A stretch of DNA of 64,000 nt from Archangium primigenium (GTDB taxonomy: Bacteria > Myxococcota > Myxococcia > Myxococcales > Myxococcaceae): positions 2,604,001-2,668,000 of the forward strand of contig NZ_JADWYI010000001.1 of assembly GCF_016904885.1 (NCBI RefSeq). Direction: 5' to 3'. The notes beneath the pieces are model-generated. The model was not told the origin of the DNA and made no database searches. It saw only the letters and a list, made by a program, of their open reading frames with translations. Shown piece by piece: positions 32,543-39,078 of the stretch; within the stretch, counting starts at the first letter, position 1; the number at the start of each line of letters is the position of its first letter. The position numbers and the translations under genes are program-made.

Positions 32543-34111
32543 ATGACCCCTCCTTCCCCTGCTCTCCCCTCGCCGTTCCGTCCCAACCACCCGAGGGCCA
32601 CCCTGGGGGCGGCGCTCGCCCTGGGCCTGTGCGCCGAGGTGCTGTTCGACGGGCCCGACCTGGGCATCTCCGTGCCGCTCTTCTGTGGGCTGTTCGTGGG
32701 GGCCCTGCTCGCGCTGGGCGGCCGCGAGGGCTGGCAGCGGGCGCGCCCCAACGCCTGGCTGCTGGGTCCGCTGCTGTTCTTCTCGGGCATGGTGTTCGTG
32801 CGCGCCAGCCCCCTGCTCACGCTGCTCAACCTGGCCTGCGCGCTGGGCTGCTGCCTGCTGCTCACGCACTTCTGGGCGGCGGGGCGCGTGGAGCGGCTGG
32901 GATTGTGGGGCTATGCCTCCACGGCGCTGGGCAGCCTGTGGCTGGCCTTGTCCACGCCCGGCGGGGTGGTGCGCGCGGAGGCGGCGCGCTGGCCCGTGCG
33001 GGAGCAGGTGTCGCGCGGGGTGCCCGTGCTTCGGGGCGTGCTGCTCGCGCTGCCCATCCTGCTCGTGTTCACCGCGCTGCTGGTGTCGGCGGACGCCGTG
33101 TTCGCGTCGGTGGTGGATGGGGTGTGGCTCGGGCTGGGCGAGGCGCTGTCGCCAGGCACGCTCTGGGGCGCGGGGTTCACGGGCGTGAGCGCCCTGGGAC
33201 TGCTGGGCCTGCTCGTGAGCGCGCTGCGGCGGCGGCGGGCCGAGGAGGCGGGGGAGACGGAGGTGGCGCCCGTGCCGCCCCGTCTGGGCTTCGCCGAGAG
33301 CCTCACCGTGGTGGGCCTGGTGGACGTGCTCTTCCTGGGCTTCGCCTCCATCCAGTTCGCCTTCCTGTCGGGCGCGGCGCGGCTGCCCGCGGAGTTCACC
33401 TACTCGGCGTATGCCCGGCGGGGCTTCTTCGAGCTGCTCGAGGTGTCGGTGCTGACGCTGGGGCTGAGCCTGGCGCTGACGCGCTGGACGCGGCCGCGCG
33501 AGGGCGCGCAGCTGCGAGCCTTCCGGGTGGCGTGCTCGGTGATGGTGGGGCTGGTGCTGGTGCTGCTCGCGTCGGCCATGAAGCGCATGGCGCTGTACGA
33601 GGCGGCCTATGGCTACACGCACCTGCGCGTCTACACGCAGGTCTTCATGGCGGTGCTGGCCGGGGTGCTCGTCTGGCGCGGGGTGACGCTGTGGTGGCGG
33701 CCCGAGCGCTTCGCCCTCGGCGCGTTCGTGGGGGGCCTGGCCTTCGTCGCGGTGCTGGACGTGCTCAACCCCGATGCCTTCATCGCGCGCGGAAACCTGG
33801 AGCGCGCGGAGGCGGGCCTGCCGTGGGACGCGGCCTATTTCCAGGAGTTGTCCGAGGATGCCGCGCCGGTGCTCGCCGCGCGGCTGGGGCCGGGGGACGC
33901 GGACCGCACCGACCTCACGCCGCTCGACCGCGTGCTGTGCGCTCGGGGCGAGCCGATGCGGGGCGGCTGGCCCGCCTTCCACCTGGCCCGTCACCGGGCG
34001 GCGGCCCTGCCGCGCACGTGCGTGTTCCAGACCGTCTACATGCCGCCGATGTCCGCGCGGGCGCTCCCGGTGGGGGAGGCGCGCGCGGAGGGGGACGTCA
34101 CTCGACCATGA
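32543..34111 (+). CDS. DUF4173 polytopic membrane protein
   Basis: A 522-residue inner-membrane protein with about ten to twelve hydrophobic helices (for example ATLGAALALGLCAEVLF, ACALGCCLLLTHFWAAG, GVLLALPILLVFTALLVSAD, LTLGLSLALTRW, VACSVMVGLVLVLLASAMKR). The segments SADAVFASVVDG, FTYSAYARRGFFELLEVSVL and YEAAYGYTHLRVYTQVFM are the signature blocks of the DUF4173/DUF4153 family. A soluble tail of about 110 residues (NPDAFIARGNLERAEAGLPW onward) faces one side. Some relatives sit beside two-component or LytTR genes, but none is here and the function is unknown. It ends overlapping the convergent cupredoxin gene by 14 bases. Confidence 0.85.
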   Translation: MTPPSPALPSPFRPNHPRATLGAALALGLCAEVLFDGPDLGISVPLFCGLFVGALLALGGREGWQRARPNAWLLGPLLFFSGMVFVRASPLLTLLNLACALGCCLLLTHFWAAGRVERLGLWGYASTALGSLWLALSTPGGVVRAEAARWPVREQVSRGVPVLRGVLLALPILLVFTALLVSADAVFASVVDGVWLGLGEALSPGTLWGAGFTGVSALGLLGLLVSALRRRRAEEAGETEVAPVPPRLGFAESLTVVGLVDVLFLGFASIQFAFLSGAARLPAEFTYSAYARRGFFELLEVSVLTLGLSLALTRWTRPREGAQLRAFRVACSVMVGLVLVLLASAMKRMALYEAAYGYTHLRVYTQVFMAVLAGVLVWRGVTLWWRPERFALGAFVGGLAFVAVLDVLNPDAFIARGNLERAEAGLPWDAAYFQELSEDAAPVLAARLGPGDADRTDLTPLDRVLCARGEPMRGGWPAFHLARHRAAALPRTCVFQTVYMPPMSARALPVGEARAEGDVTRP

Positions 34112-34499
34112 ACACGCCGCTGATCATCTTCCCCATGGCGCAGCCGTAGACGAGCTTTCCCGTCTGGGTGGGGGTGAAGCTCACCTCCACCGGCTGGTTG
34201 AGGGGCAGCGGGGTGTTGATGTTGTGCTCGTCGAGCACGATCTCCGTGGCGCACGTGTGCTCCGTGGTCCGCGTGAGCACGAGCTTGACGGGCTGACCCT
34301 GGCGCAGGGTGACGGGGCTCGGCTCGTAGCCCTTCTCCGTGATGCTGAGCGCGATCGTGCGCGGCTCGCCGGGCTTGCCCTCGGGCACGGCCGGGGCGGT
34401 GGGCGTCCCCTGGGTGCAGCCCTGCTCGGCGGCGAGCATCGCCGCGGCCAGGGTGAGCGCGAGCAGGGGCTTGATGAGCCGGGCGAAGTAGGTCCTCAC
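34098..34499 (-). CDS. Cupredoxin-domain lipoprotein
   Basis: A 133-residue lipoprotein (LIKPLLALTLAAAMLAAEQG then C, lipidated at about residue 28) with a single cupredoxin domain. ITEKGYEPSPVTLRQGQPVK, LVLTRTTEHTCATEIVLDEH and VEVSFTPTQTGKLVYGCAMG then KMISG match type-I copper proteins of the plastocyanin/EfeO-like group. Potential copper ligands are the C-terminal Cys and Met (GCAMGKM) and upstream His/Cys in TEHTC; the usual second His after the Cys is replaced. It is probably a periplasmic electron carrier or metal binder. The GTG start overlaps the upstream stop by 4 bases (GTGA), so it is coupled to the Sm-like protein. Confidence 0.85.
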   Translation of the reverse strand: MRTYFARLIKPLLALTLAAAMLAAEQGCTQGTPTAPAVPEGKPGEPRTIALSITEKGYEPSPVTLRQGQPVKLVLTRTTEHTCATEIVLDEHNINTPLPLNQPVEVSFTPTQTGKLVYGCAMGKMISGVFMVE

Positions 34500-35686
34500 G
34501 CGTCCTCCTCCATGGGGCTGTCCAGCTCGGAGTCCGTCCCTTCCTCGGCGGCGAAGCGCACCAGGGCGTGCAGGGGCACGAACACCTCGTGGCCGTCCTC
34601 GCCGACGATGAGGTCGAAGCGGCCCACCACGCGCAGACGCATGACGAGCTGGATGCCGTTGCGCAGCGTGAGCCGCACGAGCTTGCCCTGGTGGACGAGG
34701 AACGGGCGGGGGTCGGAGAAGGGCCGCTTGTCGGGCTGACGCGCGACGCTGGCGGGCTTCTGGGTGAGCTTGGGGTCGCGCTCCAGGTGGGGCATGAGCT
34801 GCTCCCAGTCCGAGCGGCGCGTGAGCAGCACCACCTGGAGCTTCTCCTGCCGGCCGCTGCGTCCGAGCACGAAGGAGATGGGCTCCACGCTGGCCAGGGT
34901 GTCGAGCACGGTGCGCTCGCCGAGCACCACGGACAGCTCCGTCTTGCCTTCCATGCGCTCCTGGATGAAGGCGCTCACCGCGGTGTCATCCACCTCGCCG
35001 CGCGCCGTCTTCACGGCCGCCTTGCGCTGGGTGCGCTCCTTGCGCGCGAGGAACTCGGCCACCGTCAGGCCGCTCTGCAGCACGCCGAAGCCGTCCGGCA
35101 GGGACAGGCCGGGGTTCTGGGTCATCAGCGCGTACACCTGGTCGAAGCGCTTGGCCTCCTCGGCGTGCAGCTTGCGCCAGATGCGGCACTTCATCTTCCC
35201 CTCGAGCTCGCCCTTGGCGATGCGCGCGGGCACGTGCTCCTTGGTCGCCAGCGCGAGGATCTGCTCGGCGGTGGGCGGGGGCCGGGGCGTGCGGGGACGG
35301 CTGAAGGCGCCTCCGGGACGCGCGCCCATGCCACCCGGCGCGGAGGGCCGCGGACCCGGGGACACCGACCGGGGCGCCACCGGCACCGCGGTCGCGGGAC
35401 GGGGCACGGCGGCCTCGACGACGGGACGCGGAGGCTCTGCGGAGGCGGGCGCCACGGCAGGCCGAGGCGCCGGGGCCACCGCGCTGGGCGCGGGCGCGGG
35501 TGTGGGCGTTGGCGCGGGCCGGGGCGCGGGCGCCGGGGCCGCCGCGCTGGGCGTGGGGGTGGGCCGGGGCGTGGGCCTCGGGCTCACCGCGGGGGCTGGC
35601 GTGGGCGCGGCCGTCCCGGGGGCGGACGCCGGGCGCCGGATGACTTCGACCGTGGGCAGGACCCGCCGTGTCTTCCGATCATTCAC
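34496..35686 (-). CDS. Pro-rich protein with C-terminal Hfq/Sm-like domain (putative RNA binding)
   Basis: A 396-residue cytoplasmic protein with three parts. Residues 1-135 are a disordered Pro/Ala/Thr linker. Residues 136-240 are a helical, basic domain (ILALATKEHVPARIAKGELE, CRIWRKLHAEEAKRFDQVYA). The C terminus has two beta-rich stretches. The last, about 336-378 (LVRLTLRNGIQLVMRLRVVG, RFDLIVGEDGHEVFVPLHAL, VRF), lines up with Hfq/Sm: an Sm1-like NGIxL, then V-x-RFDLIV and a final HAL like the KHAI of Hfq. An earlier stretch (TELSVVLGERTVLDTLASVE) may be a degenerate second copy. I know of no function for it. An RNA-binding role is inferred from this alignment by eye. It is coupled to a cupredoxin lipoprotein. 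Confidence 0.7.
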   Translation of the reverse strand: MNDRKTRRVLPTVEVIRRPASAPGTAAPTPAPAVSPRPTPRPTPTPSAAAPAPAPRPAPTPTPAPAPSAVAPAPRPAVAPASAEPPRPVVEAAVPRPATAVPVAPRSVSPGPRPSAPGGMGARPGGAFSRPRTPRPPPTAEQILALATKEHVPARIAKGELEGKMKCRIWRKLHAEEAKRFDQVYALMTQNPGLSLPDGFGVLQSGLTVAEFLARKERTQRKAAVKTARGEVDDTAVSAFIQERMEGKTELSVVLGERTVLDTLASVEPISFVLGRSGRQEKLQVVLLTRRSDWEQLMPHLERDPKLTQKPASVARQPDKRPFSDPRPFLVHQGKLVRLTLRNGIQLVMRLRVVGRFDLIVGEDGHEVFVPLHALVRFAAEEGTDSELDSPMEEDA

Positions 35687-35731: not shown

Positions 35732-36148
35732 TCACGGCTGCTGGAGGGACTGCGTAAGGTCAATCTTCCATCCGGATGGCTCACGGACCATCTGGACCTG
35801 TCTTGTGACACCCGAGGAAACCACGCTCACCTTGGCCGTGTCCCCACTCTCGCCCGCCAGCGTGACCTCCGCAACATCCGCCGGGGGTGGAATATTCGAT
35901 AGAAAGAACGCCAGGGGGTCGGCCTTCACGGCGCCCGAGGAGGCCTGGGCCACGGCCTGGGCCCGGGCGAGCAGGGCGTCCTGGGAGGCCTGGGAGAGGG
36001 TGGCGTAGGCGGTCTTCTCATCGCCGCGCTGCACCGAGCGCAGGAAGGTCTGGTAGGCCCGCACCGGGGTCTCGTAGCTGGGCCGGTTGCAGCCCGCGAG
36101 GGTCGGCATGGTCAGCAGGAGCAGCAGGGAGGCGAGCTTCAGGCGCAT
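35732..36148 (-). CDS. Small NTF2/DUF4878-like lipoprotein
   Basis: A 138-residue lipoprotein: MRLKLASLLLLLTMPTLAGC, lipobox LAGC, lipidated Cys20. The mature part begins with helices (PVRAYQTFLRSVQRGDEKTA, YATLSQASQDALLARAQAVA) and ends in strands (AEVTLAGESGDTAKVSVVSS, GVTRQVQMVREPSGWKIDLT), as in DUF4878/NTF2-like lipoproteins where a cone-shaped domain binds unknown ligands. It is likely anchored in the outer membrane. It lies between the Sm-like gene and the diguanylate cyclase gene, all reading the same way, with 45-base gaps, so it could share their transcript. Confidence 0.8.
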   Translation of the reverse strand: MRLKLASLLLLLTMPTLAGCNRPSYETPVRAYQTFLRSVQRGDEKTAYATLSQASQDALLARAQAVAQASSGAVKADPLAFFLSNIPPPADVAEVTLAGESGDTAKVSVVSSGVTRQVQMVREPSGWKIDLTQSLQQP

Positions 36149-36193: not shown

Positions 36194-37270
36194 TCACTCG
36201 GGGGCATCCCCGGTGTACTGACGGACGCAATTGCGGCCGGCGGCCTTGGCGGCGTAGAGGCAGTTGTCGGCCTCGCGCAGCAGGTCCTCGGTGGCCAGCA
36301 GCGTCCGGTCGGGCACACTGGCCACGCCCAACGAGGCGGTGCAGCGCACGTCCTGGCGCGTGCCGTCCGAGGTGCGGTGCTCCAGGACCACCGAGGCGAT
36401 GGCGTCGCGGATGCGCTCGCACGCCCCGAGCGCCTCGCGGGGGCCTGTCTCCGGCAGGAGGGCGATGAACTCCTCGCCGCCGTAGCGCGCCACGAAGTCC
36501 ACCTCGCGCAGCCGACCGCGCACCGCCTTGGCCACCCGGCGCAGCACCTCGTCGCCGAAGGGGTGGCCGTAGGTGTCGTTGAGCCGCTTGAAGTGATCGA
36601 TGTCCATCATCACCAGCGACAGGGGCGAGCGGTAGCGCGAGGAGCGGGCGAACTCCTCGCCCAGGCGCTCCTCGAAGTAGCGCCGGTTGTAGAGCCCGGT
36701 GAGCGCGTCGATGCGCGTGAGGTTGAGCAGCTCCTCGCGCTTCTGGGCCAGCTCCTTGTTGGCCCGGTCCAGCTCCCGGTTCTTGAAGTCCAGCTCCCGG
36801 TTCTTCTCCACCAGGGCGTCCTGGAGCACCTTGAGCCGCAGCATGGACTTCACGCGCGCGGACAGCTCCAGCATGTCGAAGGGCTTGACCAGGTAGTCGT
36901 CCGCGCCCAGCTCCAGGCCCTCCACCTTGCCGGCCGCCTGGCGCGCCGTCACGAGGATGATGGGGATGAAGCCGAAGCCGCCCTCGCCGCTGTTGGCCTT
37001 GATGATGCGGCACACCTCCACGCCGCCCAGCCGGGGCATCTCCACGTCCATGATGATGAGGTCCGGCCGCGACTCGCGCAGCGAGCGCAGGGCCTCGGTG
37101 CCGTCGTGCGCCTCGCGGAAGCGGTAGCCGGGGCCCGTGAGCCCCTCGCGCACGTGCTGGATGTTGGCCGGATCATCGTCGACGAGCAGGATGGTGCGAT
37201 CGGCGAGGGGATGCGGGACCGGGGCCCGGCGTGTGTCCTCCGCCCTCTTTGTCGTCATTGCTTCCGCCAT
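36194..37270 (-). CDS. Response regulator-GGDEF diguanylate cyclase
   Basis: A 358-residue PleD-like protein. Residues 25-145 are a receiver domain: TILLVDDDPANIQHV (acidic pocket), DLIIMDVEMPRLGG (phospho-acceptor Asp), ILVTAR (Thr) and DYLVKPFD (Lys). A coiled coil (LVEKNRELDFKNRELDRANK) links it to a GGDEF domain: LTRIDALTGLYNRRYFEERL, MMDIDHFKRLNDTYGHPFGD and RYGGEEF as the active A-site. REVD five residues before GGEEF is an intact RxxD inhibitory site, so c-di-GMP feedback is likely. Phosphorylation should drive dimerisation and c-di-GMP synthesis. No kinase is adjacent. c-di-GMP controls motility, pili and development in myxobacteria. ATG at 37270 was chosen over an upstream in-frame start for domain fit. 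Confidence 0.93.
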   Translation of the reverse strand: MAEAMTTKRAEDTRRAPVPHPLADRTILLVDDDPANIQHVREGLTGPGYRFREAHDGTEALRSLRESRPDLIIMDVEMPRLGGVEVCRIIKANSGEGGFGFIPIILVTARQAAGKVEGLELGADDYLVKPFDMLELSARVKSMLRLKVLQDALVEKNRELDFKNRELDRANKELAQKREELLNLTRIDALTGLYNRRYFEERLGEEFARSSRYRSPLSLVMMDIDHFKRLNDTYGHPFGDEVLRRVAKAVRGRLREVDFVARYGGEEFIALLPETGPREALGACERIRDAIASVVLEHRTSDGTRQDVRCTASLGVASVPDRTLLATEDLLREADNCLYAAKAAGRNCVRQYTGDAPE

Positions 37271-37436
37271 GTCGCAGCCACCTGTCCCCCGAAGTCCGAG
37301 CGAACCGCGTGGTGGCTGGATTCTTCCCTGATCCCGGCGTGCTGCCAAGTCGCCGCCCCGGCTTCCCGCCGGACGGGCCCCACCCGGAGTCTCTCCAGGG
37401 TCTCCCCGGACGGACCCCGGGCGGAACTGGCACGTG

Positions 37437-38057
37437 TCAGGACGGCTTGCGCAGGCGGGCCCGGTAGACGGGCTCGCCGCTCACGAGGTAGCGCCGCTCG
37501 CGCGTGGAGGGGGCCTCCTCGGGATCGTACGGGTGGAAGACGCCCGCGCCCAGCGGGTTGACGAAGCCGGCCCCCTCGAGGATGGAGAGCATGTTGACGG
37601 CGCGGTCCTGCACGTCGGTGCGCATGTCGAACAGGCCCCCGGGCTTCATCTTCTCGAGCATGAGCCGCGCGAAGTCCGGCTGCACCACGGCGCGCTTGAA
37701 GTGGGCGCGCTTCCACCAGGGGTCGGGAAACTGCAGGTGGATGGCGTCGAGCGAGCCCGCGGCGAAGAGGCGCGGCACCACCGAGCGCGCATCGGCCTCC
37801 AGCACGCGCAGGTTGCGCAGGCCCTGCTTCTGGGCGCGGTCCTGGGTGTCGCGCGCGTACTTCTTGCGCCACTCGAAGGCCACGAAGCGCACGCCGGGGT
37901 TGCGGCGGCAGTACTCCAGGGCATGGCCTCCGGCGCCCGAGCCGATCTCCAGCTCCAGGGGTCCGGAGAAGCCGAACTCGGCGTCCCAGTCGGGCGGGGT
38001 GTCCAGGTTGGCCAGGTGCAGGCCCACGGGGTCGGGGAGCAGGGGAGGACGGGGCAT
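37437..38057 (-). CDS. trmB: tRNA (guanine-N7-)-methyltransferase
   Basis: A 206-residue SAM-dependent enzyme that makes m7G46 in tRNA variable loops. LELEIGSGAGGHALEYCRRN is motif I (SAM binding), VRFVAFEWRKKYARDTQDRA carries the acidic ribose contact, RVLEADARSVVPRLFAAGSL follows, and LQFPDPWWKRAHFKRAVVQP is the PDPW-K-H-RR tRNA-binding signature. It ends with TRERRYLVSGEPVYRARLRK, where T-x-R/ExRYL is also diagnostic. ATG at 38057 (MPRPPLLPDPVG) gives the family length; an in-frame extension upstream looks non-coding. It diverges from ribF across 94 bases. Confidence 0.92.
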   Translation of the reverse strand: MPRPPLLPDPVGLHLANLDTPPDWDAEFGFSGPLELEIGSGAGGHALEYCRRNPGVRFVAFEWRKKYARDTQDRAQKQGLRNLRVLEADARSVVPRLFAAGSLDAIHLQFPDPWWKRAHFKRAVVQPDFARLMLEKMKPGGLFDMRTDVQDRAVNMLSILEGAGFVNPLGAGVFHPYDPEEAPSTRERRYLVSGEPVYRARLRKPS

Positions 38058-38138
38058 GTCGCTCAAGGAACGGGGAACGGGGGGCCTCTTCTCACGGGGC
38101 GAGGCGCTCTGGCCAGGGCAAAGCGACGCCATTGGCGC

Positions 38139-38144
38139 TATACC
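38139..38144 (+). promoter_or_regulatory. -10-like TATACC directly before ribF
   Basis: TATACC ends 7 bases before the ribF ATG, so transcription would start at or beside the start codon (leaderless message). A GC-rich tract, not a clear Shine-Dalgarno sequence, separates them. Confidence 0.3.
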
Positions 38145-38151
38145 GGGGCGC

Positions 38152-39078
38152 ATGAAGCTCTTTCACGGACTGGCCGAGGCCCGGCAGCTCGCCGGGTGCG
38201 CGCTCGCGCTGGGCAACTTCGATGGTGTCCACCTGGGCCACCAGGCGCTCTTCGCCGAGGCGCGGCGGCACGGCGTGCCCGTGGCCGTGCTCACCTTCCA
38301 GCCCCACCCGGGCAAGGTGCTGCAGCCGGACCTGGCGCCCAAGCTCATCACGCTCTTGCCGCGCAAGCTGGAGCTCCTCGCCGAGCAGGGCCTGGACGCC
38401 GCCGTGGTGCAGCCCTTCACCCGCGACTACGCCCGGCTCACCCCGGAGGCCTTCGAGGCGTCGCTCCTGGACGCCCTGGGCGCGCGCCACCTCGTGGTGG
38501 GCTACGACTTCACCTACGGCGCCGCGCGCGCGGGCAGCGTGGACACCCTGCGCGAGGCCGCGGCGGCCCGCGGCGCCCAGGTCCACCGCGTGGCGCCCGT
38601 CACCGTGGACGGGCTCATCGCCTCCTCCTCCAAGGTGCGCGAGTACATCCTCGAGGGCCGGGTGGGCGCGGCGGAGCGGCTGCTCGGGCGGCCCTTCGAT
38701 CTGGACGGCACCGTCGTCACCGGCCATGGCCGCGGGCGGGGCATCGGCTTTCCCACCGCCAACGTGGACACCCAGAACGAGCTGCGGCCCGCGCCGGGCG
38801 TGTACGCCATCCGTGTCCGGCTGGGGGACACTCCCCCGGGCACCTGGCTGCCAGGCGTGGCCAATATCGGTGTCAAACCCACCTTCGGGGTCAACGAGGT
38901 CACCATCGAGGCGCACCTCCTGGACTTCAACGCGGACCTGTACGGGAGGGACTTGCGCGTGCAGTTCCTGGACCGGCTGCGTCCCGAGCGGCGTTTTGGC
39001 TCGGTGGCCGAACTCGTGGGACAAATCAAGCGGGACGTCGAGGCCGCCCGGGCGGTCATCGCCCGGGCGTCCGGGTGA
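38152..39078 (+). CDS. ribF: Bifunctional riboflavin kinase/FAD synthetase
   Basis: A 308-residue enzyme converting riboflavin to FMN and FMN to FAD. The N-terminal nucleotidyltransferase has LALGNFDGVHLGHQALFAEA (the HxGH-type motif GVHLGHQ), VLTFQPHPGKVL and VVGYDFTYGAARAG, IASSSKVREYILEGRVGAAE (ISSTxVR-type). The C-terminal kinase has VVTGHGRGRGIGFPTANVDT, the PTAN motif, and GVANIGVKPTFGVNEVTIEA. Length and motif spacing are complete. It precedes the pilus cluster but is separated from pilB by a promoter, so it is probably its own unit. Confidence 0.96.
   Translation: MKLFHGLAEARQLAGCALALGNFDGVHLGHQALFAEARRHGVPVAVLTFQPHPGKVLQPDLAPKLITLLPRKLELLAEQGLDAAVVQPFTRDYARLTPEAFEASLLDALGARHLVVGYDFTYGAARAGSVDTLREAAAARGAQVHRVAPVTVDGLIASSSKVREYILEGRVGAAERLLGRPFDLDGTVVTGHGRGRGIGFPTANVDTQNELRPAPGVYAIRVRLGDTPPGTWLPGVANIGVKPTFGVNEVTIEAHLLDFNADLYGRDLRVQFLDRLRPERRFGSVAELVGQIKRDVEAARAVIARASG

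Follow-up and report, generated by a model that had tools for sequence, protein, structure and literature searches.

A conserved myxobacterial protein with a C-terminal Hfq-like domain and a second predicted Sm-like barrel

Sm barrels form rings by edge-strand pairing, as is established for Hfq, and eukaryotes arrived at an asymmetric Sm ring with seven separate proteins. In myxobacteria, one report describes Hfq homologues as undetected in the sequenced genomes, considers that an alternative protein might chaperone the sRNA Pxr, and places the origin of Pxr at the base of the suborder Cystobacterineae (PMC5568312). Another paper agrees that myxobacteria are without an Hfq homologue and that another protein is possible as Pxr chaperone (PMC5684412), and a third suggests that processed Pxr may require a stabilising partner (PMC10217877). 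Among unusual members of the superfamily, ORF137 of Pyrobaculum spherical virus (2x4j) is called a variant Hfq-like protein in PMC3543421. Here we describe a gene that provides the search for a non-Hfq chaperone of M. xanthus Pxr with a specific candidate; a tandem Hfq, if true, would show a way in which bacteria, too, could build an asymmetric ring of Sm barrels. No tandem Hfq-like protein of myxobacteria was found in the literature searched (subscription papers lie outside it, and a description elsewhere is possible). The Sm/Hfq kind is already known; new, as far as we have seen, are its architecture here and its occurrence in this lineage.

The gene lies on the minus strand at 34496..35686 of the window, i.e. 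the whole stretch of 64,000 nucleotides of Archangium primigenium DNA that was analysed. It starts with GTG and encodes 396 aa, as judged from the list of open reading frames, the relatives and dN/dS. The latter was low (0.09-0.55) in 20/20 region comparisons of the gene with five near relatives, and this supports the minus-strand frame 34496-35686 as the selected one, long ORFs on the opposite strand notwithstanding. By these computations the gene is conserved and under purifying selection, in a family without recognisable Hfq. From N to C terminus the protein consists of a Pro/Ala-rich basic tail, a helical domain, a first predicted barrel (D1), a conserved basic linker and a second predicted barrel (D2). 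At 396 aa and with these several parts it differs from the small single-domain Hfq. An AlphaFold2 model made from 31 aligned sequences (mean pLDDT 84.9, pTM 0.72) contains two barrel domains with pLDDT 92-96; model residues are numbered in a 259-aa segment, whose residues 98-153 are protein residues 235-290. In the model, both D1 and D2 are predicted to show the N-terminal helix and five-stranded bent barrel of the Sm/Hfq superfamily. The three sequence strings on which the initial annotation had based an Hfq/Sm-like fold are all located in this ORF, and the span it gave, 34553-34681, corresponds to residues 336-378, inside strands beta1-beta5 of the predicted D2. It had also placed a basic helical domain and a disordered linker ahead of this fold. 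The Pro/Ala-rich tail (1-137) and a helical domain (138-231) are indeed present; the part called basic helical, at 240-295, turned out otherwise, as a second Sm-like barrel is predicted there (235-290), followed by the linker. Searches with the single protein (Pfam, NCBIfam, PHROGs, PDB) gave nothing useful. The tandem protein reached none of the cut-offs of Pfam, NCBIfam and PHROGs, and even with E allowed to rise to 1 the 396-aa sequence matched none of the Pfam families, PF17209 and PF04352 included; under this limit PF17209 (gathering cut-off 27 bits) was likewise listed for none of the 49 sequences of the family.

For D2 (residues 325-380; 34547..34714, minus strand), which carries LRNG and PLHA motifs, sequence profiles, profile-profile comparison and the predicted structure all support the Sm/Hfq fold proposed for the C terminus. 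A profile of the whole family, searched blind against 177,635 PDB sequences with E allowed to reach 10, gave 11 matches. Ten were Hfq (best E 0.0029; about six proteins, as several entries duplicate one protein or are mutants of it) and the other was Vav2. In an overlapping search with a D2-only profile, 10/11 matches were Hfq or Hfq-like, the best being the M. jannaschii Hfq-like protein (E 7.4e-4). The profile-profile comparison and structure prediction that had been suggested as checks agree with this. Compared by hhalign with 13 aligned Hfqs (that of E. coli and 12 others taken from plasmid-collection records), D2 reached 82% probability and a score of 30.1 over 48 columns; the highest score was 17.0 among 200 column shuffles of D2 and 24.9 among 300 of Hfq, and the reversed profile gave 9.8. 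For the last ~55 residues the model predicts an Sm/Hfq-like domain of five strands, at pLDDT 93-96, and a short helix H190-193 (segment numbering). Neither a different fold nor a clear match to an unrelated family, the two outcomes named beforehand as counter-evidence, was found.

Residues of D2 are given in the usual Hfq numbering, which is consistent with the hhalign alignment of D2 and Hfq. In all 49 sequences D2 keeps the counterparts of Leu26, Asn28 and Gly29 (N206 and G207 in segment numbering), an aromatic residue at Hfq position 42 (D2 residue 220; F in 44, Y in 5) and the counterpart of His57 (H236), which is followed by alanine in 48/49. The Sm1 signature of Hfq (Asn-Gly turn, aromatic 42) is present in D2; the Sm2 signature Y/F-K-H-A (Lys56, His57) is not, PLHA standing in place of YKHA. 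Tyr55 is replaced by Pro and Asp40 by Gly in 49/49, and K56, invariant among the 13 reference Hfqs, by Leu in 48/49 and Phe in 1. From the six columns invariant in these 13 Hfqs, D2 has lost D40 and K56 (49/49) as well as G34 (at least 46/49). Its net charge is almost neutral (+1), that of D1 being -3. Both the sequence and the predicted fold of D2 are Hfq-like; its Sm2 motif is altered, and it is not a Pfam Hfq.

D1 (residues ~235-290; 34817..34984, minus strand) was recognised as a putative first Sm/Hfq-like barrel with AlphaFold2, VIA-align and, weakly, hhalign. It is predicted as a helix (H98-109) and five strands in Sm order (segment 98-153, pLDDT 92-96), and its sequence is more degenerate as an Hfq-like barrel than that of D2. 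In VIA-align, 49/50 rows listed were Hfq. Forty of the 50 rows covered only D1 (for instance 3rer_A, with Z 8.7 and an rmsd of 1.3 across 57 residues), a single row, the archaeal Sm 1m5q (Z 8.1), covered only D2, seven span from the helix before D1 into D2, and two were mixed. The best Z of 8.8 is little over the 7-8 that, according to the tool, models often reach even when nothing clearly matches them, and these matches to Hfq back the predicted fold and do not decide it. With the model of the tandem protein, Foldseek returned Hfq in 40 of the top 50 rows, with no match at E below 0.001, and the D1 profile gave no match among the PDB sequences. By hhalign, D1 and Hfq scored 19.5 (11% probability), with the Hfq helix and first strand in register. 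This score was reached by 0/200 and 1/500 D1 shuffles (21.2) and by 0/500 Hfq shuffles, i.e. in 1/1,200 overall; the larger control suggests a weaker sequence support for D1 than the first 200 shuffles alone indicated. A shuffled unrelated profile scored 20.7 with D1, above D1's own 19.5 with Hfq. On the predicted structure D1 may be assigned to the Sm/Hfq fold, to which its sequence points weakly. An internal duplication leading from D1 to D2 was considered and finds no support in the sequences, as the two profiles do not resemble each other (hhalign, 0.2% probability).

Two genomes of the window's own myxobacterial family (f1), both of one genus, contain paralogues in which D1 and D2 stand behind an unrelated N-terminal part (L110:3372-4631, plus strand; L111:3589-4854, minus strand), without the VPxRIAKGELEGKMKC domain. 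Because these paralogues join D1 and D2 to a different N-terminal part, they suggest that the two barrels are a unit. Four further loci (L112, L113, L114 and L062:4942-5220) resemble remnants or partial copies.

The N-terminal region comprises a short conserved peptide (PxVEVIRRP) and the Pro/Ala-rich basic tail (residues 1-137; 35276..35686, minus strand). With 51% Pro+Ala and a net charge of +14 over these 137 residues, it is by its composition probably disordered. The start region VNDRK..PxVEVIRRP (window 35627-35686) recurs in relatives: of 21 frames read from stop to stop, 19 carry a V(E/Q)(V/I)(I/V/L)R(R/K) peptide among their first 75 residues, many of them after VNDRK, and in the other two the 75 residues compared comprise upstream frame alone. 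The conserved peptide may be a docking motif. The predicted helical domain (residues 138-231; 34994..35275, minus strand) is marked by the near-invariant basic motif VPxRIAKGELEGKMKCRIWxKLH. Modelled alone (mean pLDDT 74.5), it found no convincing counterpart among PDB structures (best Foldseek E 1.5; best Z 4.3), and its sequence profile gave four PDB matches with E 0.45 or worse, all Vav2; these comparisons detected no relative of the domain, and it might have a known fold. Between the barrels lies the conserved basic linker (ERDxKLxQKPxxVARQPxxRP, residues 291-324; 34715..34816, minus strand), in which L170, P174, R179, P181 and R184 (segment numbering) are invariant in the alignment of 49. 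It is partly of low confidence (pLDDT 52 in block 171-180), and a conserved, basic, low-confidence linker would fit a contact to RNA or to a neighbouring subunit. An acidic C-terminal tail (34499..34546, minus strand; net -8 in the window) is unconserved over the family. We rejected an Hfq-like acidic tip as a family feature, since this end is net negative in 36/49 sequences, yet only 1-2 residues long in many relatives.

Downstream lies a cupredoxin-like gene (34098..34499, minus strand), whose initial GTG and the stop codon of the Hfq-like gene overlap at window 34496-34499; this suggests translational coupling. The two genes are close in near relatives and 1.4-3.1 kb apart in others. Upstream neighbours were assessed in 21/30 named-genome loci that carry enough upstream DNA, the other nine beginning <200 bases from the match. 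A small protein with a lipoprotein-like N terminus, as judged by eye (35732..36148, minus strand), occurs in 18/21 of these informative loci and a response regulator-GGDEF protein (36194..37348, minus strand) in 17/21. The conserved partner in 21/21 is a gene for what we take to be a TrmB-like tRNA methyltransferase (37437..38153, minus strand), which is found even where the other upstream neighbours are not (L060, L061). The classical hfq lies beside miaA in 3/12 plasmid-collection records, two being without annotation there.

The tandem gene was found in 34/59 genomes searched, its own included. Short conserved peptides, scanned over 84,980 species genomes, pick up only close relatives; they located 30 loci, of which 28 bear a myxobacterial label. 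In a record titled Comamonas sp. KCTC 72670 (L042) the gene sits in a full myxobacterial neighbourhood, and for this reason the label is probably wrong. From these searches 49 distinct sequences were kept for the family alignment. The family profile matched 93/195 phylum genomes, all of them in f1 (93/96), with no match at E up to 0.001 in the 99 phylum genomes outside it. The gene is also kept by three genomes of only 2.1-2.7 Mb, and this retention suggests a core role. Three f1 genomes were listed without a match (79%, 98% and 85% complete); the 98% complete one (G007) gave no match to the gene, to D2 or, within the 59 genomes, to Hfq, reflecting either a true loss or an assembly gap. Matches of the D2 profile outside f1 were weak (best E 0.02) and taken as chance, and in 20 chosen genomes of other families the full-length profile, searched to an E of 10, gave two weak matches (E 0.24 and 2.1). 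The range of the gene presumably approximates the Cystobacterineae and may overlap with that of Pxr.

That classical Hfq is absent or unrecognised in this lineage, as the initial annotation put it for Myxococcus, is borne out by the genomes. PF17209 reached its cut-off in 0 of the 59 genomes and in 0/195 phylum genomes, the latter with three sub-threshold matches; the same search detected Hfq over the cut-off in 5/14 control genomes, including E. coli and B. subtilis. The best PF17209 score in the window's own genome (14.1 bits) belongs to a 657-aa ORF, by eye a large unrelated protein, and was taken as chance; ProQ (PF04352) was not found over cut-off in this genome. The three sub-threshold matches lead to a sister myxobacterial family and, in it, a cyclic-nucleotide-binding protein that carries an Hfq-like domain at its C terminus. 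Such fusions (L122:4933-6066 and L134:1057-1731, plus strand; L123:5851-6513 and L124:708-2015, minus strand) end in VPYHA or IPYHA, and their C-terminal part matches 9/195 genomes, i.e. seven of one genus, one distant (E 1e-7) and one weakly (E 0.008). The Hfq-like domain of the fusion scored 29.4 with Hfq (60 shuffles at most 16.7) and 25.3 with D2 (60 shuffles at most 14.5); with D1 there was no match (13.1, shuffles up to 20.7). The fusion is possibly a cNMP-controlled Hfq-like protein.

On balance we think it probable, with some reserve, that the product of the tandem gene is an RNA-binding member of the Sm/Hfq superfamily, specific to this lineage and with a pair of Hfq-like barrels per chain, that forms rings and stabilises sRNAs such as Pxr. 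Its chains would assemble by Sm-type edge-strand pairing, the simplest ring being three chains that contribute six barrels with D1 and D2 alternating. RNA would be held in the D2 pocket by Phe220 and His236 (259-aa segment; residues 357 and 373 in the full protein; Phe42 and His57 of Hfq) and also by the basic linker, the helical domain and the tail; the protein would stabilise sRNAs such as Pxr and aid their pairing with mRNAs. We infer RNA binding, ring assembly and chaperone activity from these features, and a chaperone filling an Hfq role, as the initial annotation had proposed, would fit the findings. The altered Sm2 motif and the near-neutral barrels count against a plain copy of Hfq uridine binding, and the basic flanks may supply RNA contacts instead. 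Only tentatively, and with more doubt than conviction, do we put forward the fuller picture, in which this protein is the long-missing Hfq of the fruiting myxobacteria, a two-barrel Hfq whose three chains close a heterogeneous six-barrel ring in which D1 and D2 alternate. Every chain would add a new helical domain that binds RNA or a partner, and the ring would serve as chaperone for Pxr and for other sRNAs by which multicellular development is gated.

The main rival to an RNA-binding Sm protein is a structural or protein-binding scaffold, whose Sm-like barrels would dock a partner, e.g. via the N-terminal peptide and the helical domain. Such a role would suit the replacement of K56, Y55 and D40 in D2 and the low net charges of both barrels, and the Foldseek list includes the Sm pair Gemin6/7, which is protein-binding, and FXR2 Tudor domains. 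However, the pocket aromatic and His are retained in 49/49, tail, helical domain and linker are all basic, and the lineage is without recognisable Hfq; we consider a scaffold unlikely. More improbable, in our estimate, is a factor linked to translation or tRNA, i.e. an Sm-like protein whose partners are tRNA or ribosomes and not regulatory sRNAs; the constant TrmB-like gene upstream (L060 and L061 included) and the retention in genomes of 2.1-2.7 Mb would agree with it, but gene order alone is weak evidence, given that classical hfq itself adjoins the tRNA-modification gene miaA in the three records noted above. An unrelated small beta-barrel (SH3-like or OB-like) that resembles Hfq by chance might explain the modest E-values and the failure to pass any curated family cut-off. 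This reading is already disfavoured and we hold it to be very improbable, as the D2 sequence profile, the shuffle-controlled profile-profile comparison and the predicted structure point to the same family, and the second myxobacterial Hfq-like domain matches D2 above its shuffles.

Compared with known systems, the RNA-binding Sm protein that we favour shares with Hfq (PF17209) the predicted five-stranded Sm barrel and the beta1-NG-beta2 motif, and in D2 the aromatic at 42, the His at 57 with its following alanine, and an equal spacing from Asn-Gly to the aromatic. It differs in having two barrels in a 396-aa chain together with a helical domain and a long basic tail, in the replacement of K56, Y55, D40 and G34, in staying under the Pfam cut-off, and in a gene that follows trmB and not miaA. 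The closest single protein is the Hfq-like MJ1435 of Methanocaldococcus jannaschii (2qtx, 5dy9), which is the best sequence-profile match of D2 (E 7e-4) and heads the VIA-align rows (Z 8.8 and an rmsd of 2.4 across 58, with 89..243 as the range in the model); unlike the tandem protein, it is a single 71-aa domain that has kept the KHAI lysine. ORF137 (2x4j), at Foldseek rank 4, aligns over 138 columns, which exceeds one barrel, and from this length it is perhaps a two-barrel precedent, although it is an archaeal virus protein with 13% identity and an rmsd of 14.0 across the whole alignment. Finally, the zinc finger-Hfq-like fusions of Thermococcus plasmids, as presented in PMC3543421, likewise carry a C-terminal Hfq-like domain in a larger protein, but combine one such domain with a zinc finger and belong to archaeal plasmids.
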